Assembly: GCA_002591605.1 (NCBI GenBank)
Contig: PCDA01000010.1
Span: 15,087 to 27,020, forward strand
Direction of reading: 5' to 3'
From: Fidelibacterota bacterium
Lineage (GTDB): Bacteria > Marinisomatota > Marinisomatia > SCGC-AAA003-L08 > TMED161
Length of the DNA: 11,934 nt
Below the pieces are notes generated by a model. That model did not search any database, had not been told where the DNA came from, and worked only from the letters and a program-made list of their open reading frames with translations. How positions within the stretch are numbered: position 1 is the stretch's first letter; each line of letters opens with the position of its first letter. Positions 84 to 11,934 of the stretch are shown here, one piece after another. Position numbers and translations under genes: made by a program.

Positions 84-515
84 TTACTCTCCACCTGAAT
101 TAGATTGACCGTAACCTGTATACTTTCCGGTTTCTTTATTATATTCAATTTTTTTTCCTCCGCCACCACCCATTTCTTCGGTACTTGTAGCAGATAGGGT
201 TCCGCCCTCTCCATCCTCATCAAAAGAGCATTCAAATTCCCATTTTTTTGTAATTGATTTTTTTATTTCTAGGTAATCTTCTTCTTTGAGAGTTTCCCAA
301 CAATCAGGTGGGTAGCTATCATTTTCCATTTTATATATTTCTGAAGCTTGAACAATATTTTTCATTTGAGTTTTAGCTTCAGTTGCATAGCCTTTTCGGA
401 CATAGCTATAATATGTTGGTATTGCGATTGCAGCCAAAATTCCTACAATCACTACAACGATAAGAATTTCAACTAGAGTAAAACCAGTAAAATATTTTTT
501 GATTGACTTTTTCAA
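84..515 (-). CDS. Type IV prepilin / pseudopilin (143 aa)
   Basis: This is a classical class III signal: a short 11-residue basic leader (MKKSIKKYFTG), the prepilin peptidase site G11^F12, then TLVE with Glu at mature position 5, and a hydrophobic helix to about residue 33 (ILIVVVIVGILAAIAIP). Residues 34-65 continue the N-terminal helix (YYSYVRKGYATEAKTQMKN), as in PilA/PilE and type II secretion GspG-like subunits. Two Cys (72 and 96) could form the D-region or loop disulfide. The globular part is small and acidic and carries a five-glycine run (116-120) before a short lysine-rich end. The start is TTG at 513-515, chosen because a near-perfect AGGAGG sits 5 bases upstream and the leader has normal length. 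The product would be cleaved and N-methylated by PilD and assembled into a pilus or pseudopilus. The adjacent pilT favours a retractable type IV pilus over type II secretion. Confidence 0.92.
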   Translation of the reverse strand: MKKSIKKYFTGFTLVEILIVVVIVGILAAIAIPTYYSYVRKGYATEAKTQMKNIVQASEIYKMENDSYPPDCWETLKEEDYLEIKKSITKKWEFECSFDEDGEGGTLSATSTEEMGGGGGKKIEYNKETGKYTGYGQSNSGGE

Positions 516-817: not shown

Positions 818-3800
818 ATGTATATCAATTTAGTTACGCTATTAATAAGCATTTCTGTAATATTTTGTGCTCAACAAAATAATACTACATATACAACTCA
901 TTATAATGATTCTGAGAAATTGATTAATGTATCAAGTAACATTCTTCATACTGGACTGTCAGAAAAACTTAATCAGCAATACACGATAACGCCAGATTTC
1001 CTTATTGAAAATGGAATTACACCATTCACAACTTACTATATGATCCAAGAAGGCAAGGAGTATTCGGCTTATATAGAAATACTTGAATCTTATATTATTG
1101 AAAATATTGATGTTGATCTAGATGATGAGCTTTTAAACTCTAATATTTTATCAAACACATTAAATATGAGAGGAGTTAATCTTGTTGAAATTAACGTTTA
1201 TCCAATTCACTACAATCAAGAACAACAAACTTTAACCATGATTAAAGCTTTTGATATTATAATTGATGAATTTGATACTTTAAACGATAATAGTCAAAAA
1301 TATACTGTTCCAATTTCATTAGATTTTGAAAAACTTCTTTCAAGCATGGTGATTAATCTAGACTTAAGCAATAGATTGATAGAAACTCAACCATCAATAT
1401 TATACATATGTGGAGGTGCATCTATTTCAAATAGTTATCTTCAAGATTTAATTCAGTGGAGAAAAGAGCAGGGGTATAAAGTTTATTCAGTAAGTACATC
1501 TGAGATAGGTACTAGTTTTAATGCTATCTCAGATTATATTTCAAATGCTTATTTTAATTGGGATTTCCCTCCTGAGTATGTAACTCTTGTAGGCGATACA
1601 AGTGGATCATATCAAGTACCTTATTCATCTGCAAGTGGAGGCTCTAGCGATTATCCTTATAGTCTCATACAAGGAGGAGATTTATTACCAGAGGTCATTG
1701 TTGGTAGAATTTCAGCCAGTAGCTCATCAGAACTTAGCAATATTATTAATAAAACAATTGCCTATGAAAAAGCTACATATTTTGATTTTACTGGAACTGA
1801 TTGGTATGAAAGTTCTGCATTGGTAGGCGACCCATCATCGACTGGAAACTCAGCAATTATAACTAATGAATATATTGAAAATATTTTGAATGTGTATGAA
1901 TTTGAAGATGTGGGTACATGCTACTCTTGTGGTAGCTATAGTAGTTGGATGCAAAATCGTTTACAAGAAGGGATTCTTTATTTTAATTATAGAGGATACA
2001 TAGGAACTAGTGGGTTTGGGTCAACTAATATCAATAATGCAAATAATGGCTACATGACTCCCTTTGCCACATTTATTACATGTGCAACAGGAGATTTTAA
2101 TGGAACTTCAATTGCAGAGTCATTTATAAAGGCTGGTTCAATAGCAAATCCAAAAGGGGCAGTTGCAGCAGTTGGAACTGCTACATCATCAACACATACT
2201 GTACCAAATAATATAGTGGATATGGGTATCTATGATGGAATTTTTGCTAAAGGTGTTTCAACAGCTGGTGCAGCACTTGTTAGTGGTAAAATGGCGTTGC
2301 ATAGTACATATCCTCAAGATCCATATAGTATGACTTATAAGTTTACTCATTGGAATAATTTGATGGGAGATCCTACTCTTAGCCTATGGACTGATACACC
2401 TTCCGCATTTAATGTAGATTATAATAATAGCATAAATATGGGGTCAGATTTATTGGAGTTTTATGTTACAGATATTCAAGGTAATGATGTGAATAATGCA
2501 CGAATTGTTTTGTATGTCGATGACGATAATGTGTATGAAACATTCTCAAATGAAAGTGGATATGCTAACATACAATTAAATGAATTAACTCTCTCAAATG
2601 CTAAAGTTACAATTTTAAAGAAAAATTTTATCCCTCATTCTGGCAATATCAATATCATAAATGAAAATAGGCACATTGAATATAAAAGCGAATTGCTTGT
2701 CATTGACGATGATTTAGGAATTAATGATTCTAACCCAAATGGCTTAGCAAATAGTGGAGAAACTGTTCAACTATATATGTATTTAGAAAATTTATCTAAT
2801 AGCAATGTTTCTTCATTATCCTACATTGAAACCAGTTCAGATAAAATTGAAATTATTAGTAATGGGCTGATATCTAATAATTTAGCTGCAGCTGAAACAA
2901 GCCTAGTTGGTCCATTTCAATTACATTTGAATCAAGATATAATATCAACAGATAATACAGACCTAATTTTAAAGGTTATTAATAATGATAATGAAGGTGA
3001 AGAGTGGATTTTTAATGTTCCATTTAATGTATTATCACCTAATGTTATAATTAATAGCATCAATTACAGTTCAGATTTCAATCCTGGAGATGTGGTTGAA
3101 ATGTTTGTTGAATTTGAAAATATTGGTACGGAAGCTATTGAAAATGGTAATGCGACTATATCAATAAATAATTCATTAGTTGAAATATTTGATTCAGTAG
3201 TTAATATAGGATCGATTTTACCAGGTCAAACTAGTCTAAATACAGAGCCGTTTTCTATATCATTTAGTGATGATATGATTGATGGTTCCCTATTATCTTT
3301 TAACTTAAATATAGCTAACGAGCATGGCTACAGCCAAAATATTGTACTAGATAATATTTCTGTTGGAGTTGCATCTCAAAATGATCCATTGGGTCCAGAT
3401 TCATATGGCTATTATATATATGATTGGACAGATGTTGGATATAGTCTGACACCATTTTATGATTGGATAGAGCTCGATCCCAGTCAAGGTGGAGATGGTT
3501 TAAATTTAGGCATAAGTCATTCAGGCAATGGAAATGGTAGTGTAGCAAATAGTACAAAGTATGTTGATTTGCCCTTTACATTTACATTTTATGGACAAGA
3601 TTATGATCAAATATCTGTAAGTGCAAATGGTTGGATATCTTTTGGTTATTCAAATATGGAATCGTTTAGAAATTATCAGTTACCTGGAGCAGGAGGTCCT
3701 TCTCCAATGGTAGCTGCATTTTGGGATGATTTGAAAACTACAGGTACATCAAAAGTTCTTAAATATATTTCTGATGAATATGTAATTATCGAATGGCTTA

Positions 3801-4279
3801 ATATGGAAACATATCAATATGGTGATAATCAGACTTTTCAAGTAATTTTATATAATTCTATAACTCCATCAGGTGATGATGAAATAAAAATTCAATATAA
3901 AGAATTTAATAATACTACAAATGGTGACTATAGTCAATACACTCCATATCATGGCTGCTATTCTACAATAGGTATCGAAAACCATATGTCTAATGATGGG
4001 ATAGAGTATACCTTCAATAATAATTATCCTACTGCTGCAGCTCCTTTGCAGGATCAAAGTGCTATTTTTATTACCACGAGGAATACAACTGTTTTAAATG
4101 CAGGTGATGTGAACCAAGATGATGAAGTTAATATTTTGGATATAGTTATGGTTATTAATCATATCTTAATGATTGAATCATTGGACTCTCTAGGACAATT
4201 TGTCTCAGATATGGATGAGAATCAATCAATTAATATTTTAGATGTTATTTTAATGATAAACTTAATTTTTGAATCATAA
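818..4279 (+). CDS. Secreted C25 (gingipain-family) peptidase-like protein with C-terminal type I dockerin; catalytic His replaced
   Basis: This is a large multidomain exported protein of 1153 aa. Residues 1-18 form a hydrophobic signal peptide with probable cleavage after FCA and no basic n-region. About 20-190 resembles a C25 prodomain. About 193-525 is the C25 fold: LVGD, then SDYPYSLIQGGDLLPEVIVGR, then YEK, with the nucleophile region ITCATGDFNGTS (Cys422, like the gingipain C-x-N-G-D-F) and the usual end motif NLMGDPTLSLW (MGDP from 516). The gingipain catalytic His sits in N-Y-x-G-H-G; here the equivalent reads NYRGYIG, with Tyr394. Ig- or CARDB-like segments fill about 530-850. About 856-1085 is a YGYY...YDWTDVGY...LPFTFTFYG module common in such proteins. 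Residues 1096-1152 carry two dockerin repeats (GDVNQDDEVNILDIVMVINHI and DMDENQSINILDVILMINLI) with Ca-binding Asp/Asn positions. It ends 9 bases before pgsB, suggesting co-transcription. Whether it is an active protease is uncertain. Confidence 0.85.
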   Translation: MYINLVTLLISISVIFCAQQNNTTYTTHYNDSEKLINVSSNILHTGLSEKLNQQYTITPDFLIENGITPFTTYYMIQEGKEYSAYIEILESYIIENIDVDLDDELLNSNILSNTLNMRGVNLVEINVYPIHYNQEQQTLTMIKAFDIIIDEFDTLNDNSQKYTVPISLDFEKLLSSMVINLDLSNRLIETQPSILYICGGASISNSYLQDLIQWRKEQGYKVYSVSTSEIGTSFNAISDYISNAYFNWDFPPEYVTLVGDTSGSYQVPYSSASGGSSDYPYSLIQGGDLLPEVIVGRISASSSSELSNIINKTIAYEKATYFDFTGTDWYESSALVGDPSSTGNSAIITNEYIENILNVYEFEDVGTCYSCGSYSSWMQNRLQEGILYFNYRGYIGTSGFGSTNINNANNGYMTPFATFITCATGDFNGTSIAESFIKAGSIANPKGAVAAVGTATSSTHTVPNNIVDMGIYDGIFAKGVSTAGAALVSGKMALHSTYPQDPYSMTYKFTHWNNLMGDPTLSLWTDTPSAFNVDYNNSINMGSDLLEFYVTDIQGNDVNNARIVLYVDDDNVYETFSNESGYANIQLNELTLSNAKVTILKKNFIPHSGNINIINENRHIEYKSELLVIDDDLGINDSNPNGLANSGETVQLYMYLENLSNSNVSSLSYIETSSDKIEIISNGLISNNLAAAETSLVGPFQLHLNQDIISTDNTDLILKVINNDNEGEEWIFNVPFNVLSPNVIINSINYSSDFNPGDVVEMFVEFENIGTEAIENGNATISINNSLVEIFDSVVNIGSILPGQTSLNTEPFSISFSDDMIDGSLLSFNLNIANEHGYSQNIVLDNISVGVASQNDPLGPDSYGYYIYDWTDVGYSLTPFYDWIELDPSQGGDGLNLGISHSGNGNGSVANSTKYVDLPFTFTFYGQDYDQISVSANGWISFGYSNMESFRNYQLPGAGGPSPMVAAFWDDLKTTGTSKVLKYISDEYVIIEWLNMETYQYGDNQTFQVILYNSITPSGDDEIKIQYKEFNNTTNGDYSQYTPYHGCYSTIGIENHMSNDGIEYTFNNNYPTAAAPLQDQSAIFITTRNTTVLNAGDVNQDDEVNILDIVMVINHILMIESLDSLGQFVSDMDENQSINILDVILMINLIFES
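4097..4276 (+). other. Type I dockerin domain at the end of the C25-like protein
   Basis: The last 60 codons hold two EF-hand-like dockerin repeats. The first begins GDVNQDDEVNILD and the second DMDENQSINILD, each with Asp/Asn at Ca-coordinating positions followed by an amphipathic helix (IVMVINHIL and VILMINLIF). Such domains bind cohesins in cellulosomes and also occur in non-cellulosomal secreted proteins, where their partner is often unknown. No cohesin is encoded in this window. Confidence 0.85.
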
Positions 4280-4288
4280 GGTAAAGTA

Positions 4289-5461
4289 TTGCCAGTATCA
4301 ACTTTAGCTCTTCTTTTAATTCTTTGTCTCTTAATTTGTTTAGGGTTAATTGAATCATGGATTCATAAAAATGCAATTTCAAAAATCCCAATCAGAATAC
4401 ATGTTAATGGTACTAGAGGCAAATCAAGCGTTACAAGGTTAATAGCAGCTGGTCTTAGAGCAGGTGATATAAAAACATTCGCTAAGACTACAGGGTCATC
4501 TCCTAGATTTATTGATAGTAATGGAGATGATCATGTAATTCAAAGATTCCGCCCTGCTTCGATTGGTGAACAGATAAGAATGATAAGTAGGTTTGCCAAG
4601 TATTCTCCTAAAGCTATAGTTATGGAATGTATGGCTGTGCAGCCACAATATCAATGGGTCTCTGAACATAAAATACTTCAATCTAATTATGGAGTTTTAA
4701 CAAATGTGAGAGCTGACCATTTGGAAGAAATGGGGTATAGTCTAAATCATATAGCAAAATCATTAAGCAATACAGTACCCTATAATCAGAAATTTTTTAC
4801 ATCTGAAGATGAGAATTATCAAACCTTAGAAGATAAATCTATAAAGAATAATTCAACTTTTTTCCTTTCCAGTGGAAAACAATTAGATAAGAAATTTTTG
4901 GAGGGCTTCCCATTCATTGAACATCCTGATAATATTGCATTAGCATTGGATATTTGTGAAGACCTTGGAGTTGAAAATGAACAAGCAATTAAGGGTATGA
5001 GGAAAATGATACCAGATCCGGGGGCGCTTACGATCACTAAATTATCAATTAATAACTCAAGCGTTGATTTTGTAAATGCTTTTGCAGCAAATGATCCCCA
5101 ATCAACACTAAAGACATGGAATATTATTTTCGAATATGTTAAAGGTAGTAGAAAAACAGCCATATTTTTAAATACAAGGCCAGATCGTCAAGTTCGAACC
5201 CAGCAGTTACTGGATTTAGTATTTTCAAGTATGAAAGCAGATCATATTATCATTCGTGGTGACAACTTAGAAAGTGATGTTAAATCACGCTATGAAAATA
5301 TGAATAAAATTGATTATTCTATTTTTAGTTATGATGATAGTTCTAGTAAGATTATTGATAAAATATCTACATTAGATGATTATCTGATTGTTGGCATTGG
5401 CAACATTGTTGGTTGGGGTGAAGAATTTATGAGAAAATTAAAAGGTTATAAAAATGATTGA
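4289..5461 (+). CDS. pgsB: Poly-gamma-glutamate synthase subunit PgsB (CapB), Mur-ligase-like
   Basis: PgsB is the ATP-dependent amide ligase that joins glutamate through gamma-carboxyl groups at the inner face of the cytoplasmic membrane. The 390-residue length and colinear motifs match Bacillus PgsB/CapB (about 393 aa). An N-terminal membrane anchor (about 4-23) is followed by the P-loop NGTRGKS (40-46), KTTGSSPR, IGEQ, MECMAVQP (112-119), NVRADHLEEMG (139-149), HPDNIALALD, PDPGA, FAANDPQST, RPDRQVRTQQ and a C-terminal VGIGNIVGWGEE. All recognisable ligase motifs are present, so the enzyme looks intact. The start is TTG at 4289-4291, preceded by AAGG seven bases upstream; it gives the same distance to the P-loop as in Bacillus. 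The last 8 bases overlap pgsC, the standard partner. CapB/MurE-type relatives exist, but CMAVQP and the adjoining pgsC make PGA synthase the clear choice. Confidence 0.95.
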   Translation: MPVSTLALLLILCLLICLGLIESWIHKNAISKIPIRIHVNGTRGKSSVTRLIAAGLRAGDIKTFAKTTGSSPRFIDSNGDDHVIQRFRPASIGEQIRMISRFAKYSPKAIVMECMAVQPQYQWVSEHKILQSNYGVLTNVRADHLEEMGYSLNHIAKSLSNTVPYNQKFFTSEDENYQTLEDKSIKNNSTFFLSSGKQLDKKFLEGFPFIEHPDNIALALDICEDLGVENEQAIKGMRKMIPDPGALTITKLSINNSSVDFVNAFAANDPQSTLKTWNIIFEYVKGSRKTAIFLNTRPDRQVRTQQLLDLVFSSMKADHIIIRGDNLESDVKSRYENMNKIDYSIFSYDDSSSKIIDKISTLDDYLIVGIGNIVGWGEEFMRKLKGYKND

Positions 5462-5999
5462 TAATCCTGCAATAGCAATAGGATTAGGGATGATTATTAG
5501 TTTAATCCTTACTGAATCTGTTGGAGTTACAGCAGGGGGGTTAATTGTACCTGGATATATTGCTTTAAATCTTCATTCTCCAGCTATGGTATTAACAACT
5601 TTTGGAATAAGTCTATTTACCTTAGCTATTTTAAATTTATTATCAAGATATATTATTATATACGGTAAAAGAAGACTTGTTTTTTGCTTACTATTAGCGT
5701 TTATACTTGGCTCGATTATTAGAGAGGTTCCAATTCATTTAAAGAGCATATATGATGTTGAAACTTTATCTGCTCTTTTAGATATATCTGAGCTAAACTT
5801 CATTCAATACTTCATTGTTCAAATTGGTTACTTACTATCAGAATTTACTAGCAGTGAGCTTGTCTATGTGGGATATCTTATCCCTGGTTTAATTGCGAGT
5901 TGGATGGATAAACAAGGTATTTTAAACACTTCATCAATAATATTAATTATTGCTAGTTTTATTAACTTAATATTAATGGTTTTAGCTCACTATGTTTAG
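5454..5999 (+). CDS. pgsC: Poly-gamma-glutamate synthase membrane subunit PgsC (CapC)
   Basis: PgsC is the integral membrane partner of PgsB, required for PGA polymerisation and thought to form the membrane part of the synthase. Family landmarks are visible: an N-terminal helix leading to GVTAGGLIVPGYIAL (24-38), an IIIYGKRRL loop (67-75, cf. ILYGRRKF in Bacillus) and GYLIPGLIASWMDKQG (140-155, cf. GIIVPGLIANTIQKQG). About five hydrophobic segments can be seen. At 181 aa it is longer than Bacillus PgsC (149 aa). The extra residues fall mainly at about 95-135, between the YGKRR region and the second VPG motif. The ATG lies inside the end of pgsB (8-base overlap), and its own end overlaps pgsW by 8 bases, so translational coupling of all three is likely. 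Confidence 0.93.
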   Translation: MIDNPAIAIGLGMIISLILTESVGVTAGGLIVPGYIALNLHSPAMVLTTFGISLFTLAILNLLSRYIIIYGKRRLVFCLLLAFILGSIIREVPIHLKSIYDVETLSALLDISELNFIQYFIVQIGYLLSEFTSSELVYVGYLIPGLIASWMDKQGILNTSSIILIIASFINLILMVLAHYV

Positions 6000-7170
6000 A
6001 CCTTATATAAAAAGAACTTATATTTTAGTTTTAGTAGCTATGATTAATCTCTTACTTGTATATGTTTCATATCAATCACATTCATTTACCAAGTCGAAAG
6101 ATTATGAACTCAAAATTGAAGCTGCAACTATAATGAAGAATGCTCTTGATTTAACAAAAGAACTTGATAAGCCTAAAGTTGTTGATAGATTTAAATCAGG
6201 ACTTGTTGGAGTTGACTCAACCGATTCTCAAATGACAACAAAAAGAGGATTTTTAGAATCAAAAGTAGCCACTACTAATCCTAACTTTGCAGCGATTTTT
6301 ATTGATTGGTTTAGTGCTATTGGCATTTCTAGTAATATTTCTAATGTTTCTGATACTATCGCAGTAAGTATGACAGGGTCATTTCCAGGAGCAAATATTG
6401 CTTTTCTTTCTGCATGTAAAGCATCAAATGTATATCCAGTAATTATTAGCTCGATAGGATCCTCTTCATGGGGTGCAAATCAAATCGATAAAACATGGAT
6501 TGAAATTGAAAGTACTCTACTTGATGCAGATTTTTTTAATTATAAAAGTAAAGCATTTTCGTTAGGTGGGGATAATGACCAATTAGATGAGTTATCAGAT
6601 TATACAAAGCAAATACTAGAAAATAAAATTATTAAAAATAATTATGATATTATCTCTGGCGCCCAAATGCAAGAGGCTGTAAATAAAAGAATCAAAAAAT
6701 ACAAAGAGCAAAGTAGTAACTATAAAGCTTATGTAAATATTGGTGGCTCTTCAGCAAGTTTAGGTGACTCTACAACTAGTAAAATGTATTTACCTGGATT
6801 AATTTTTGGTAAAGACGAAGCTATAGCTGATGCCTTGGATGATGAATATTATGATGAATACGAGTATCAACAAGAAATAATACCTGTAATTGAATATTTT
6901 TTAAGTGAACAGAAAATTCCTGTTATTAATGTTAGAAATATAAATAACTTATGTGAATGGTATGGATTGCCGTATAGCAATCTAAGTTTTAATGATGACA
7001 ATGTTAAGGTTGGTAGTGGTGATTTATTTGGTGTTAAAACTAAGCACCGTTTCTCAGTTGTGTGGTTAAGCACCTTAGCTTCTCTAGCTTTAATTGCTTG
7101 GCTTGCAATATCTAGCCTTATACAAGTTAATAATAAAATGAAAGAAATTGACAATGATTCTATTATATAA
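5992..7170 (+). CDS. pgsW: Poly-gamma-glutamate system protein PgsW-like
   Basis: This 392-residue protein is anchored at both ends: a basic N-terminus with a membrane helix at about 9-27, and a second helix at about 354-376 followed by a short charged tail. The roughly 325 residues between them would be periplasmic. Position and features fit the poly-gamma-glutamate system protein family (PgsW) found beside pgsB-pgsC in some bacteria. Notable stretches are MTGSFPGANIAF (127-138), SIGSSSWGANQIDKTWIEIE (154-173), LGGDND (191-196), NIGGSSASLG and a late VINVRNINNLCEWYGLP. The Gly/Ser-rich segments suggest ligand or polymer contact, but I see no established catalytic motif. It is not a CapA/PgsA metallophosphatase-fold protein. 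It overlaps pgsC by 8 bases and the next gene by 17, placing it firmly in the PGA operon. The family assignment is from recollection and context. Confidence 0.82.
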   Translation: MFRPYIKRTYILVLVAMINLLLVYVSYQSHSFTKSKDYELKIEAATIMKNALDLTKELDKPKVVDRFKSGLVGVDSTDSQMTTKRGFLESKVATTNPNFAAIFIDWFSAIGISSNISNVSDTIAVSMTGSFPGANIAFLSACKASNVYPVIISSIGSSSWGANQIDKTWIEIESTLLDADFFNYKSKAFSLGGDNDQLDELSDYTKQILENKIIKNNYDIISGAQMQEAVNKRIKKYKEQSSNYKAYVNIGGSSASLGDSTTSKMYLPGLIFGKDEAIADALDDEYYDEYEYQQEIIPVIEYFLSEQKIPVINVRNINNLCEWYGLPYSNLSFNDDNVKVGSGDLFGVKTKHRFSVVWLSTLASLALIAWLAISSLIQVNNKMKEIDNDSII

Positions 7171-8113
7171 ATTTTTCATTCTTACTTTTTTTGCATTACT
7201 ATTTGCAAAACCAATTGATCCTGTTGGAACTGAAAAATCAGTTTTAATATCTAATTCTAAGAAAAAGAGTAAGAATTATAAGTATTATGAATTAGATAAG
7301 TCTGGACTGAAATTTACAGATTTGGGCTCATTTTCAAATGATGACTCATTGCGTATCAAATTATACATAAGAGAAGTAATCGCTAAAGAAAAAAAAGAAA
7401 AACAAAAATTCAAAGTTGATATTTCTTTAAATGGGACTTCTAAAACAGTTTCATTTAAAGATAAATCAATGAGCAAGCATACTTTGAAAAATAGACCTGG
7501 CTGGGCTACTACAGATGCGGGTATTTGGTTTTTAGATGTAAAATATAGTGATTTTAAAAATTTACTTATTAATAGAAAATCAAATGAAAAATTAATTGTT
7601 CGTACCGTGGTTAATAAGATTGATAGATCCAAGCTTGTTTCAAGAACTATTAGTACAATAAATAGTCAGAAAAAATATAAAATAGATACTAAAAGCCAAA
7701 AAAGTGGAAAGTTAATTTCAAGATATTGGTATAAATTGGAAGAAAACTCAGATAAATTGAAGTTTGAAGTTGAGGGTCCAACTTCTATTAGAGTTTTTAG
7801 TAGAATTTCAAATCCCTCGCATAATTCTAAGGTTAATAATTATTCCTTATTTATTAAAGAAAATGGACTTGATATCGGAACATTTTCCTTTTCGTCTGAA
7901 TTATCTTCCCTTAGCAATTTAAATGAAACAGGTGAGAAAGTAAGTAAATGGAGAACATGCTGGATAAATGTTCCTAAGGGAAAGCATTATTATACAATAA
8001 GTAAAGGTTCATTCTATTCCAGAGAAAACTCATATTATGCAAATACTCAAGATGCTACAATTGAAGATTCTAGCAATACATTTATAAGAGTAAAAAGATA
8101 TGATAAAGACTAG
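7154..8113 (+). CDS. Exported protein of unknown function in the PGA operon
   Basis: I do not recognise this family. The ATG at 7154 gives 319 aa beginning MILLYKFFILTFFALLFA, a good signal peptide with probable cleavage after Ala18, leaving a mature protein that starts KPIDP. A TTG two codons upstream (7148) is the alternative start. The mature protein is strongly basic in its first half (KKKSKNYKYY, KEKKEKQKFK) and rich in alternating beta-type sequence. The C-terminal half (about 165-319) has WYKLEENSDKLKFEVEGP, then a YSLFIKENGLDIGTFSF stretch and a KWRTCWINVPKGKHYYTI stretch, suggesting a beta-sandwich. There is a single Cys (269) and no catalytic motif that I can name. It overlaps pgsW by 17 bases and the barrel gene by 14, so a role between synthase and outer membrane is a reasonable inference. 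The many lysines would suit contact with a polyanion such as polyglutamate. Confidence refers to the gene; its function is open. Confidence 0.9.
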   Translation: MILLYKFFILTFFALLFAKPIDPVGTEKSVLISNSKKKSKNYKYYELDKSGLKFTDLGSFSNDDSLRIKLYIREVIAKEKKEKQKFKVDISLNGTSKTVSFKDKSMSKHTLKNRPGWATTDAGIWFLDVKYSDFKNLLINRKSNEKLIVRTVVNKIDRSKLVSRTISTINSQKKYKIDTKSQKSGKLISRYWYKLEENSDKLKFEVEGPTSIRVFSRISNPSHNSKVNNYSLFIKENGLDIGTFSFSSELSSLSNLNETGEKVSKWRTCWINVPKGKHYYTISKGSFYSRENSYYANTQDATIEDSSNTFIRVKRYDKD

Positions 8114-9173
8114 ACAACTTCTTTTGTCTCTTTTATTATTATCGGTACTTTACACTAATACTATATTTAGTGGGTTCAGAGTTCCTATCTATTATACCAG
8201 TTCAATGTCAGTTGGCTATGATAATAATTTATTTAGATTATCTAATTTAAACTTAGAGTCTAATACATCTTCAAATATAATTGATTCAGATACATTTGAT
8301 ACCGGGTATATCACTCCTAAGCTTCAAATTGATTATCAGCCATATATATTTTCATCTTTGAAGACTGATTTTGATTTTTCTTTATCAAGAAATCATTATT
8401 TTAGTTCACCAGAAAAATCTTTCAATATTCTTTATTCACAGATAGGTATAAAGTTTGCACCTTATCAATCGTTTAAGTTTGCACATCGCTATATACCAAA
8501 ATACTATTTGCGAAATTATATTGATCATGATATGTCAACTGATGTAAATCAAATATGTACTTTCTCAATAGAAAGTTTTTCTTTTTCCTATTCACTACCT
8601 TTATTAAATAAAAATTGGGTTAAACTAAGGTTTATTAGGACAAACTATTTTTATAATAACAGTTTTACTGAATTTGATACTCGCATCAATCAATTAGAGC
8701 TAAAATATTATTTTAGATTTTTAAAGATGTCTAATAGTATATGGTATTCTTACTCAGATGGTGATAATATATCAAGTGGTGATGGATTTTTTTCAAGTAA
8801 GATCAATCGATCATATATAGAGCATAACCTTGGTTTTAGTTTGAAAAAGAAGATTCGAAAAGTTAATCTATTAGATAATTTGGGGACATCTTTGATGCTT
8901 GAGAATAGATTTTACAAAGCAGAGAATGAAAATAACTTATCATTCAGTTCATGGGAGGATGCATTGCATAATGGAAGGACTCATAGTGAGGTTAATTTTT
9001 CAATCTGGATTGATAGGAAGTTAACTGATGAGATAAGTAATCAGTTTAAATTCAAGTTTAGAAAAAGAACAGTTGAGTCTGATTATTACTGGGTTTCAGA
9101 CTTTAAAGAGTTTAATAAGTTTGAGATCATTTATAAGATTTCATTTAGTTCGAATTTTAATATTTTGTATTAA
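8100..9173 (+). CDS. Predicted outer-membrane beta-barrel protein in the PGA operon
   Basis: This 357-residue protein has a clear signal peptide (MIKTRQLLLSLLLLSVLYTN, cleavage near residue 24). The rest is barrel-like: alternating polar/aromatic strands such as YYTSSMSVGYDNN, PKLQIDYQP, LKTDFDFSLSRNHYF, LELKYYFRF and NSIWYSYSDGDN, separated by short acidic or Ser/Asn-rich turns. It ends NKFEIIYKISFSSNFNILY, where the last strand finishes in an aromatic residue (Tyr) as expected for BAM recognition. The many repeated strands suggest a mid-sized barrel, but I cannot count them reliably. No plug, TonB box or known enzyme motif was seen. The ATG overlaps the end of the preceding gene by 14 bases. 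The context suggests an outer-membrane exit or anchoring pore for poly-gamma-glutamate, which Gram-positive systems do not need. This role is inference; an unrelated porin-like protein remains possible. Confidence 0.85.
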   Translation: MIKTRQLLLSLLLLSVLYTNTIFSGFRVPIYYTSSMSVGYDNNLFRLSNLNLESNTSSNIIDSDTFDTGYITPKLQIDYQPYIFSSLKTDFDFSLSRNHYFSSPEKSFNILYSQIGIKFAPYQSFKFAHRYIPKYYLRNYIDHDMSTDVNQICTFSIESFSFSYSLPLLNKNWVKLRFIRTNYFYNNSFTEFDTRINQLELKYYFRFLKMSNSIWYSYSDGDNISSGDGFFSSKINRSYIEHNLGFSLKKKIRKVNLLDNLGTSLMLENRFYKAENENNLSFSSWEDALHNGRTHSEVNFSIWIDRKLTDEISNQFKFKFRKRTVESDYYWVSDFKEFNKFEIIYKISFSSNFNILY

Positions 9174-9184
9174 GGAGTCATAAC

Positions 9185-10252
9185 ATGAAGATATTTTTTT
9201 TAATCACATTGTTTTTGATTGGATGTAGTAAGCAATCAGATCCCTTGGGAATTAAAGTTTTAGATGAGTGGCATTACGAGACCATAGATGCCTGTAGGGG
9301 CATTGATATTTCTGATAATGTATTAGTTGCAGCTGCTTCTAGTAATGGTTATTTTAGATTTAATATTTCAGACTCTGATACTTTGCAGCTTGTGAATCAT
9401 ATTGCTGATATTAATCCTAACACTGGTGATGATGCTGCATATGATGTAGCAATTTCAGGCAGTATAAAAGATAAGGTTTTTGTATTAGATGATGTTGATG
9501 GTATTGTAGTATATTTTTTTGATGGGAGTCCAAGTATTACATTGGATGCATGTGGAAATAGTCTAACCTATAGAAGTTTAGCAATAAATGATGCAATACA
9601 GGATACAACAATAGTTTTTACCTTACAAAAGCATCAAGTTGATGGCCTGCCTAATGGTTTTGATCAATATTCAACCTCTGTGGGAATTAGACAGTATTTT
9701 GAAACTCTTGACCCGTTTGGCGGTGAAACATTATTTGAAAATGATGGTTGTGACGCCGCAATTAATCCTAGTATTGATGCAATGAAGATTTTTTATGCTG
9801 ATAATCTTTTGAGCCTCACTCTTGGTGGACTTGGAGTACAGGTTTATAAGTATGAACATAACTCAGATAACCCTCTTGTGCCTTGGTCTTCATTTTATGT
9901 CCAAGGAGGAGAAGCTGAAAGCATATTCTCTTTAGGGCAAACGGTGATTGGAGGATTTGATAATGATAGAGGTTGTTACATGGCGTTACTTGACTCAGAT
10001 GGTGAAATAGTTGGTAATTTAAGTTTTGCTGATGGTTACTCAGTTAATGCAATTGACTATAAGAGCGGTGTGCTTGCTCTGGCTGTGGGAAATGATGGAG
10101 TTCTCATTTATGACTGGGATGAGTCACTTGGATTAGATTTAAAAGGTATACTAAATGTTGGAGACGATAATTATGTATACGATGTAAAGGTGCATAACGA
10201 TGATGTATATGTTGCATCTGAGAATGGAATATCAATTTATAACATAAAATAG
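9185..10252 (+). CDS. LVIVD-type beta-propeller lipoprotein
   Basis: The N-terminus MKIFFLITLFLIGCSKQSDP is a lipoprotein signal with lipobox L-I-G-C, so Cys14 should be lipidated; Ser at +2 is compatible with outer-membrane sorting. The 355-residue protein contains degenerate repeats of the LVIVD kind (A-x-G-V/I-x-I-x-x-N-x-x-Y/L-V-A...G-x-x-I/V-Y-D/N-I): about 37-61 (CRGIDISDNVLVAAASSNGY), 84-112, 199-222, 243-267, 285-311 (VNAIDYKSGVLALAVGNDGV) and 329-354 (VYDVKVHNDDVYVASENGIS). Six or seven blades would close a propeller, a fold that serves as a binding scaffold; no catalytic residues are evident. AAGGAG overlaps the previous stop codon and lies 7 bases before the ATG, so the gene follows the barrel by 11 bases in the same apparent operon. 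It could be a surface partner of the barrel or an independent surface lipoprotein. Confidence 0.9.
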   Translation: MKIFFLITLFLIGCSKQSDPLGIKVLDEWHYETIDACRGIDISDNVLVAAASSNGYFRFNISDSDTLQLVNHIADINPNTGDDAAYDVAISGSIKDKVFVLDDVDGIVVYFFDGSPSITLDACGNSLTYRSLAINDAIQDTTIVFTLQKHQVDGLPNGFDQYSTSVGIRQYFETLDPFGGETLFENDGCDAAINPSIDAMKIFYADNLLSLTLGGLGVQVYKYEHNSDNPLVPWSSFYVQGGEAESIFSLGQTVIGGFDNDRGCYMALLDSDGEIVGNLSFADGYSVNAIDYKSGVLALAVGNDGVLIYDWDESLGLDLKGILNVGDDNYVYDVKVHNDDVYVASENGISIYNIK

Positions 10253-10264
10253 GAATATATAAAA

Positions 10265-11934
10265 ATGTATAAAATATTAAGCGCTCTAACTTTTGTTTCA
10301 AGTCTTTTTTCTCAGTTTAATTGGCAAGATGGGGGATTACCATTGAGACAAGGAGTTCACATAGAATGGCAAAGAAGTGGTATTGTTTCAAGTGATGGAG
10401 GTTTAATTATGACTTGGTCTGATACTAGAAACTCAATAAGAGATATTTACGCTCAAAAAATTGATTCTGATGGGAATTACCTTTGGCAAGATGGAGGTGC
10501 TGTAGTTGTAGATGTAGATGGTAGACAAGAAGATCCTTTAATTGTACCAGATGATCAAGGAGGAGCATATATAATTTGGCGTGACTATAGAGATGAGAAT
10601 TACTATGGTGATATTTATGGTCAGCATATTGATTCTAGCGGTAATCAGCTATGGGCATCTGGAGGAGTACCTCTTTCAAATCAAACTGGTGAGCAATCAA
10701 GTCACAACTTGTGTATAGATGGTAATGGTGGCGCATTTGCTGTTTGGCTTGATAAGAATGGCTCTGGAACTTATAGAGGAACCCACTTATCATCAGATGG
10801 CCCTTTAACTGTTGGGCAAGGTGAAATAGTTTCAAATCAGGTAAGTGGTGGCTTTAGTTTAGAGTATTCTGGTGATGCTAGCGCTGTTATGGTATGGAGT
10901 GAGGGCGTTACTTTAGATATATTTGAATGTTCTGATAATGAAGATATTTATTTTGATGAAGATAGTTGTCTAAATGGATGTTTATCAGACTGTGAATTAG
11001 GTACTCTAGAATCGGGTGATATTAGAGCACAACGATTTAATACCGATATGGAAACACTGTGGAATGAAGATGATTCTAATAGTGGAAAAGACATATGTGA
11101 TGATGAATACCTTCAAAGTAAAGCTAAGGTTACAACTTTTGGTGACAATGTAGTTGTAGTTTGGAGAGATTTAAGAAACGATGATGATGGAGATGTTTAT
11201 GCTCAAATCATTAATTCAAATGGTGACAATCTTCTTGCAGATAACGGTGTTGTAGTCTGTGATGACGAGGGTCAGCAAGTTTCACCTAGGGTGAAAACAG
11301 ATGGGACTCATGCATTCATATATTGGGAAGATAAGAGATTTAATAATGTAGATCCTTATGTTCAAAAAATGGATGCCTCAGGTAATATGCTCTGGATCGA
11401 AAATGGTGTTCAGCTTGCGAATGATATAAACAATCAAGACCAGTTGAGAATGGCGGTAGATAATAATGGCGGTGCATTTTTTACTTGGATGGATGGTAGA
11501 GGTGAAGATAATCCAGTTTGGAGTGGTGCAGATATATATTTAGAGCATGTTAATCCGGATGGGAATATTACATTTGGTGGCTCCGGGATACCAATTGACC
11601 AAGACTCTGGACCTCAGAAAGATCCTTTAATTAAATGTAATTCAAGTGGTGAATCTTATGTTATATGGGCTGATTTAAAAGATGGGGCTAATATAAGCGT
11701 TGATCTTCAAATTGTGACGACTGCAGGGCCTTTACTCGAAAATAATGGCCAAGAAGTATGGTATGGTGTAGATGGTAATGCTCTTTTGAGTAATTCAATT
11801 AATCTTTCATCTGGAAAGTATTTAGTTGCTTGGGAAGATAATAGATTCTTTAGTACTGGTCGCCCAGGTTCATACACATATGGACTAGTAGTTGAAGAGG
11901 ATATGGATATGAATACTCACCAAACAGCTTCTCC
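10265..11934 (+). CDS. Secreted W-x-D-x-R propeller-repeat protein, 3' end outside the window
   Basis: An open frame runs from ATG 10265 to the right edge (556 full codons) with no stop, so the gene is partial. MYKILSALTFVSSLFS is a signal peptide, and the mature protein begins QFNWQDGG. Nine repeats are marked by a Trp in [VITA]-W-x-[DE]-x-[RK] at residues 51, 105, 161, 211, 300, 354, 408, 468 and 523. Most continue D-I-Y-A-Q-x-I-D-x-x-G-N-x-L-W-x-x-x-G-V, as in DIYAQKIDSDGNYLW and DIYGQHIDSSGNQLW. The period is 50-60 residues except for 89 between the fourth and fifth, where a Cys-rich insertion sits. This is a beta-propeller architecture seen in large cell-surface proteins of FCB bacteria. 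Any C-terminal sorting or dockerin domain would lie outside the window. AGGA at the previous stop codon precedes the ATG by 10 bases, suggesting the same transcript. Function unknown. Confidence 0.9.
   Translation, partial: MYKILSALTFVSSLFSQFNWQDGGLPLRQGVHIEWQRSGIVSSDGGLIMTWSDTRNSIRDIYAQKIDSDGNYLWQDGGAVVVDVDGRQEDPLIVPDDQGGAYIIWRDYRDENYYGDIYGQHIDSSGNQLWASGGVPLSNQTGEQSSHNLCIDGNGGAFAVWLDKNGSGTYRGTHLSSDGPLTVGQGEIVSNQVSGGFSLEYSGDASAVMVWSEGVTLDIFECSDNEDIYFDEDSCLNGCLSDCELGTLESGDIRAQRFNTDMETLWNEDDSNSGKDICDDEYLQSKAKVTTFGDNVVVVWRDLRNDDDGDVYAQIINSNGDNLLADNGVVVCDDEGQQVSPRVKTDGTHAFIYWEDKRFNNVDPYVQKMDASGNMLWIENGVQLANDINNQDQLRMAVDNNGGAFFTWMDGRGEDNPVWSGADIYLEHVNPDGNITFGGSGIPIDQDSGPQKDPLIKCNSSGESYVIWADLKDGANISVDLQIVTTAGPLLENNGQEVWYGVDGNALLSNSINLSSGKYLVAWEDNRFFSTGRPGSYTYGLVVEEDMDMNTHQTAS
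10904..11017 (+). other. Cys-rich insertion within one propeller repeat
   Basis: This segment encodes about residues 214-251 of the propeller protein. It separates the W-S-E start of the fourth repeat (W211) from its continuation GDIRAQRF. It is acidic and carries four Cys at 222, 235, 239 and 243 (C-x12-C-x3-C-x3-C). The Trp-to-Trp distance here is 89 residues against about 54 elsewhere, so roughly 35 residues are extra. It may be a disulfide-stapled or metal-binding loop displayed from the propeller. Confidence 0.7.

Follow-up and report, generated by a model that had tools for sequence, protein, structure and literature searches.

The window analysed here (11,934 nucleotides of the Fidelibacterota contig PCDA01000010.1) carries a cassette of five consecutive genes, namely pgsB, pgsC, pgsW, a gene for an exported basic protein and a gene for a predicted beta-barrel protein, which probably encodes a machine for the synthesis of poly-gamma-glutamate (PGA) and its export across the envelope of a two-membrane bacterium; we assign this reading a probability of roughly 0.68. 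The cassette joins known PGA synthesis to a new envelope module, and our hypothesis is that it constitutes a complete diderm PGA system. The reading draws on gene order, conservation, the families of PgsB, PgsC and PgsW, the near-exclusive co-occurrence of the last two genes with pgsW and the charge of their products, together with two predicted folds. In the following, L numbers denote fetched loci and G numbers genomes, and PgsW is the name given to the TIGR04332 protein in an earlier sequence-only reading of the window.

All five reading frames are open at the coordinates listed in Table 1, and successive genes overlap by 8, 8, 17 and 14 bases, as that reading had described. The start of the exported protein was placed at the ATG at 7154, the TTG at 7148 adding two residues to the product. 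The proposed five-gene unit holds in so far as five genes form the conserved core, but the cassette is not isolated and lies within a co-directional run of at least eight genes, with 9 bases between an upstream C25 peptidase gene and pgsB, 11 between the barrel gene and the following gene, g8, and 12 between g8 and g9. Scans for promoters and terminators were uninformative (88 promoter-like sites versus 71.5, standard deviation 7.8; 3 terminator-like sites versus 3.7). The nearest relatives found for the window are a Neomarinimicrobiota genome (L001) and 'bacterium TMED161' (L002), with PgsB being 93% identical.

The identities proposed earlier for the first three genes were confirmed, all three products scoring above the curated NCBIfam cut-offs. 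PgsB reached 408.7 bits for TIGR04012 (cut-off 222.7) and in addition matched the Pfam family Mur_ligase_M (1.9e-9), with a transmembrane helix at residues 3-21 and the motif NGTRGKS. PgsC reached 114.4 bits for TIGR04011 (cut-off 96.45), matched Caps_synth_CapC (2.5e-27) and has four hydrophobic segments. Both equivalog scores together with the adjacent, overlapping genes place the pair among PgsBC synthases, and PgsW, with 234.4 bits for TIGR04332 (cut-off 100), transmembrane helices at 9-27 and 355-373 and a gene overlapping pgsC by 8 bases, marks a TIGR04332-type system. Sequence searches against solved structures returned no match at 0.001 for PgsB and nothing beyond a weak flavodoxin match (0.021) for PgsW. 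The motif NGTRGK occurs in 100 of the 130 proteins found with the PgsB profile; a longer pattern used at first was too strict (89/131).

To follow the cassette across genomes, TIGR04332 was searched in three phyla: that of L003 (245 genomes, 100 positive), that of L005 (296 genomes, drawn evenly, 12 positive) and that of L007 and L004 (39 genomes, all positive, the same 39 being returned by a query from L004), referred to below as the first, second and third phylum. The presence of PgsW in every third-phylum genome searched is unusually universal for a capsule-type gene. The first-phylum pgsW sites, the 12 second-phylum loci (one of them as L005) and 29 of 59 third-phylum rows plus L004 and L007 were fetched. 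Among the seven related loci found initially, L004 and L006 are cut by contig ends, and the remaining five, including L005 from the Ignavibacteriaceae and L007, all show the order pgsB-pgsC-pgsW-exported protein-barrel, the barrel of L005 being detected by profile only. Over 148 loci, and counting those with room for the neighbour in question, pgsB was followed by pgsC in 130/130 cases, pgsC by pgsW in 132/132, pgsW by the exported protein in 121/142 and the exported protein by the barrel in 118/119, the sole miss being L173, whose contig ends there. Gene ends overlapped or touched at the four steps in 103, 125, 92 and 93 loci, counts that are somewhat overstated as starts were taken from the longest open reading frame (ORF). 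A chance neighbourhood is ruled out by the conserved order and the co-occurrence in three phyla.

The last two genes were also found almost exclusively where pgsW is present. Across the 580 genomes of the three phyla, the exported protein was detected in 138/151 pgsW-positive versus 1/429 pgsW-negative genomes and the barrel in 139/151 versus 2/429 (Fisher p ~1e-116, a value that treats genomes as independent, which related genomes are not). The profiles used (A1, 27 rows, for the exported protein; A2, 35 rows, for the barrel) were built partly from genomes that were later searched. The first phylum yielded 95 genomes with the exported protein and 97 with the barrel, 94 and 95 of them pgsW-positive. 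In the second phylum both proteins occurred in an identical set of seven genomes, all pgsW-positive, and in the third in an identical set of 37, the barrel of G577 being a weak piece at a contig end (4.7e-4). Among the pgsW-negative genomes, only G238 has both genes, together with part of PgsB at a contig edge; the other barrel match, in G153, is a piece of 44 residues. Conversely, six pgsW-positive genomes of the first phylum lack the exported protein (G026, G144, G178, G179, G180, G240) and five lack the barrel (G026, G125, G144, G228, G240); the pgsW locus reaches a contig end in G125, G144 and G228. PgsB scored above its cut-off in 79 of 209 first-phylum genomes, 76 of which are pgsW-positive; in the other three (G006, G119, G238) the PgsB match lies at a contig end. 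In G092, which lacks pgsW, part of a PgsB scoring under the cut-off lies at the edge of a contig. Homologs of the last two genes lying mostly away from pgs genes, a finding that the sequence-only reading had named as speaking against itself, were thus not encountered, and the exported protein and the barrel belong with pgsW.

Neither of the two genes is present at 23 pgsW loci. Five of these have no downstream room (L004, L060, L065, L143, L147); the other 18, which are uncut, form a second kind of pgsW locus. A gamma-glutamyltranspeptidase gene is present in 16 of these 18 (not in L088 and L185) versus 0 of 124 loci with the exported protein or barrel. In the PgsW tree, the loci with the exported protein or barrel stand opposite the others (support 100/98, recovered in 200/200 bootstrap trees), and on the cassette side the first (93/89), second (98/89) and third phylum (96/88) are separate. 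The tree was midpoint-rooted and comprised 68 of 139 usable rows, with the two largest groups capped at 25 and 18; the five cut loci were left out, as were rows shorter than 290 residues, and some of the rows are long (L176, L185, L110). Both kinds of locus share the PgsW family, and in the first two phyla pgsB and pgsC are found in the second kind as well, but the latter differs from the cassette in lacking the last two genes, in its transpeptidase neighbour and in its separate side of the tree. That pgsW may be followed by unrelated genes had also been named as evidence against the cassette; this does occur in the 18 uncut loci, yet given their separate position and the transpeptidase in 16 of them it does not overturn the proposal.

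L086 (6601-13000, G240) and L089 (3-6330, G237) each contain a gamma-glutamyltranspeptidase gene, an Asp/Glu racemase-like gene directly ahead of pgsB, then pgsC and pgsW. The gene after pgsW in L086 encodes a secreted protein that resembles N-formylglutamate amidohydrolase and ends in a type IX sorting tail. A profile of the latter gave 79 matches, thought to arise through the sorting tail, and was not used. In the third phylum, L188:6505-10625 and L181:6360-10401 hold a second pgsW copy that lacks pgsB and pgsC as neighbours and is preceded by a gamma-glutamyltranspeptidase gene; in L188 a DctM-like transporter gene comes next.

As members of the sister branch of PgsW have gamma-glutamyltranspeptidase beside them in 16 of the 18 uncut loci and an Asp/Glu racemase-like gene in two, PgsW is tied to glutamate polymers. 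This association, like the equivalog scores of PgsB and PgsC, argues against the idea that the system uses the ligase chemistry of the pair on a different product, such as some other poly-amino acid or a component of the envelope that becomes glutamylated. The match of PgsB to the Mur ligase middle domain would fit such a product, and in Francisella capB and capC are, according to the consulted part of PMC4688374, not needed for the capsule, the role of the locus being unsettled; overall we consider a polymer other than PGA improbable.

Neither the exported protein nor the barrel matched any Pfam or NCBIfam family above cut-off. The structural model of the exported protein (predicted local distance difference test, pLDDT, 80.5; predicted template modelling score, pTM, 0.50) shows two jelly-roll-like domains, the second resembling carbohydrate-binding modules of the CBM35/36 type. 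For the last protein, structure prediction supports the barrel fold suggested earlier, and a signal helix: the predicted model combines the signal helix with an even number of antiparallel strands and a C-terminal aromatic residue, as expected of an outer-membrane beta-barrel. The exported protein is basic and the barrel lumen, its side being assigned by hydrophobicity parity, rich in Arg and Lys. At 73% identity to L001:4965-6035 and L002:12895-13965, compared with 91-99% for its four partners, the barrel, judged from these sequences, appears to evolve much faster than they do, as a surface-exposed protein might.

The main alternative takes the barrel for a surface anchor or receptor and the exported protein for a binder, with the chain leaving the cell elsewhere. 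A precedent is Wzi of group 1 capsules, described in the consulted text of PMC3791409 as an outer-membrane lectin underpinning capsule assembly. The folds closest to the exported protein are those of carbohydrate-binding modules, which bind polymers without moving them. However, no other outer-membrane protein was seen to be constant at the locus, and the predicted 14-strand barrel aligns best with channels (CymA, OmpG). Wzi, whose barrel presumably has 18 strands, is absent among the fold matches listed for the barrel, which excludes nothing. On balance an anchor appears unlikely, although it is the strongest competitor to an exit pore.

The genes flanking the cassette (Table 1) vary. The product of g8 has a lipobox-like LIGC sequence, and its homolog in L005 matches LVIVD repeats (1.4e-24); detected by profile, g8 adjoins the barrel gene in 89 of the 112 loci that have room for it. 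It is missing from the other 23, which comprise all 20 third-phylum loci counted, two second-phylum loci (L154, L155) and L106. The homolog of g9 is full length in L002 (1018 residues, weak dockerin match 0.037) and is followed there by an M14 zinc carboxypeptidase gene (L002:18124-20253, 4.9e-28), whose product is a possible PGA-processing enzyme and, used as a profile, matches 52 ORFs in 108 loci; kinship between carboxypeptidase A and PghP, a PGA hydrolase from phage, is noted in the consulted part of PMC4497714. The upstream peptidase matched Peptidase_C25 (1.5e-53) and Dockerin_1 (1.1e-9), with a weak nidogen-like match, and a homolog lies upstream of pgsB in L002, L003 and L005. The third-phylum loci gave no match to the M14 profile, and C25 was found upstream of pgsB only as a 100-residue piece in L161. 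A larger core that takes in g8, g9, the M14 enzyme or the C25 peptidase was ruled out, as these are not constant beside third-phylum cassettes. No counts were taken from iterated C25 and g9 profiles, which drifted through shared domains. The divergent type IV pilin-like gene of the window lies, in L002 (506-5313), within a run whose products resemble pilus components by eye.

Table 1. Genes of the window, with the five cassette genes listed first.
Gene or product	Position	Strand	Length	Description
pgsB	4289..5461	+	390 aa, TTG start	poly-gamma-glutamate synthase subunit, Mur-ligase type
pgsC	5454..5999	+	181 aa	inner-membrane synthase/translocation subunit
pgsW	5992..7170	+	392 aa	poly-gamma-glutamate system protein; soluble domain flanked by N- and C-terminal transmembrane helices
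exported basic protein	7154..8113	+	319 aa	pair of beta jelly-roll-like domains; candidate polymer-binding subunit of the periplasm
barrel	8100..9173	+	357 aa	predicted beta-barrel of 14 strands, signal helix at the N-terminus; candidate exit pore of the outer membrane
g8	9185..10252	+		lipoprotein-like; accessory neighbour outside the core
g9	10265..11932	+		large secreted-looking protein, continues past the window end; accessory neighbour
C25 (gingipain-type) peptidase with dockerin	818..4279	+		accessory neighbour
type IV pilin-like gene	84-515	-		divergent

Secreted peptidases beside the cassette would also fit a role of the barrel in uptake or recycling, in which it imports glutamyl polymers or peptides freed by the C25 and M14 enzymes. 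The M14 gene follows the cassette in L002, and CymA and FadL, both close in fold to the barrel, are uptake channels. However, the peptidases lie outside the core, as the third-phylum loci demonstrate, and the constant partner of the barrel is a biosynthetic ligase pair, which makes uptake very improbable.

In the export machine that we favor, PgsB and PgsC would polymerise glutamate at the inner membrane, where the chain leaves the cytoplasm. With a helix at either end as membrane anchor and its domain facing the periplasm, PgsW would occupy the place of PgsA/CapA of Bacillus. The basic tandem jelly-roll protein may then bind the anionic chain and guide or hold it across the periplasm, as jelly-roll domains of BcsB guide cellulose, and the barrel with its Arg/Lys-rich lumen would release it through the outer membrane. 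Outside, the polymer might form a capsule or an anchor, be shed, or undergo processing by enzymes encoded nearby, for instance the M14 carboxypeptidase of L002. We infer all steps after PgsBC from the linkage of the genes and from the predicted folds and charge of their products, and this applies to the substrate, the topology of PgsW, complex formation, the direction of export and the fate of the polymer.

Several observations weigh against this proposal. L107-L109 (G178-G180) keep the barrel without the exported protein, although their PgsW is longer (461 residues) and the extra stretch may substitute for it. In G006 and G119, where PgsB lies at the end of a contig, pgsW, the exported protein and the barrel are all missing from the genome, for which incomplete assemblies may account, and 30 of the 130 PgsB-profile proteins lack the NGTRGK motif. 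The fetched stretches of the 124 loci with the exported protein or barrel contain neither a gamma-glutamyltranspeptidase nor an Asp/Glu racemase of the profiled types, the rest of the genomes being unsearched. The jelly-roll matches of the exported protein are at the level of a common fold, and the 14-strand fold is also that of the uptake channels CymA and FadL. The side of the lumen was set by hydrophobicity parity without coordinates or control barrels, and the signal is weak for some strands (150-167: 0.00 versus -0.28). Finally, the case for PGA in these organisms comes from sequence analysis.

PGA has been studied mostly in Bacillus, where it has one membrane to cross. The cassette resembles the Bacillus pgsBCA(E)/capBCA loci in its adjacent B and C genes with products above the equivalog cut-offs, but differs in having PgsW after pgsC and two further envelope genes; no Pfam or NCBIfam match to the PgsA/CapA subunit was found at E 0.1 among the nine ORFs of the window. 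For Bacillus, PgsBC is reported to be needed for both synthesis and excretion of PGA, its transport being ascribed to the PgsC homolog (PMC6029982, in the part consulted). The Francisella capBCA locus likewise combines B and C with a third gene, capA, annotated 'poly-gamma-glutamate system protein' (PMC5362203), a name that suggests TIGR04332 membership; its product is disputed, and the consulted parts of PMC5362203 and PMC4688374 mention no pair of exported protein and barrel. A CapA entry for Leptospira is given in the consulted part of PMC10100824. Fusobacterium nucleatum is cited as the first Gram-negative PGA producer (Candela 2009, in the consulted parts of PMC3815933 and PMC4497714); its system is called homologous to the Bacillus synthesis genes, and those parts mention no outer-membrane component, the term 'outer membrane' occurring 0 times in PMC3815933. 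CapsuleFinder, whose PGA model makes CapB and CapC mandatory, finds such capsules in most phyla, and the consulted text names no outer-membrane part, although its authors state that a cell with two membranes requires at least one additional protein (PMC5542703).

The earlier statement that no outer-membrane PGA exporter has been characterised agrees with the open-access literature, where none appeared among the matches listed, which is no proof of absence. A search for Marinimicrobia together with polyglutam found no open-access paper, and 'pgsW' among the matches listed there stood, by their titles, for other meanings of the letters. If correct, the proposal names the outer-membrane part of PGA export in two-membrane bacteria, assigns a testable function to two families that neither Pfam nor NCBIfam models cover, and leads one to expect envelopes with polyglutamate in marine bacteria, most of them uncultured, and throughout one whole phylum.

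The cassette falls outside the synthase-dependent exopolysaccharide systems (Bcs, Alg, Pel, PNAG), as no glycosyltransferase or tetratricopeptide repeat (TPR) match was found in the nine window ORFs. Its layout is nevertheless like that of the cellulose synthase BcsA-BcsB-BcsC, with parts that are unrelated: a ligase replaces the glycosyltransferase, and the 14-strand barrel comes without a TPR match. No kinship with BcsB is claimed, because the exported protein scores the same Z with many unrelated jelly rolls. With somewhat better than even odds, the cassette would represent the first machine recognised as dedicated to the secretion of a poly-amino acid across the whole envelope, leading from PgsBC via PgsW and the tandem jelly-roll protein to a 14-strand exit barrel, old in at least three two-membrane phyla, near-universal in one of them (37/39 genomes) and similar to the cellulose system in layout by convergence.

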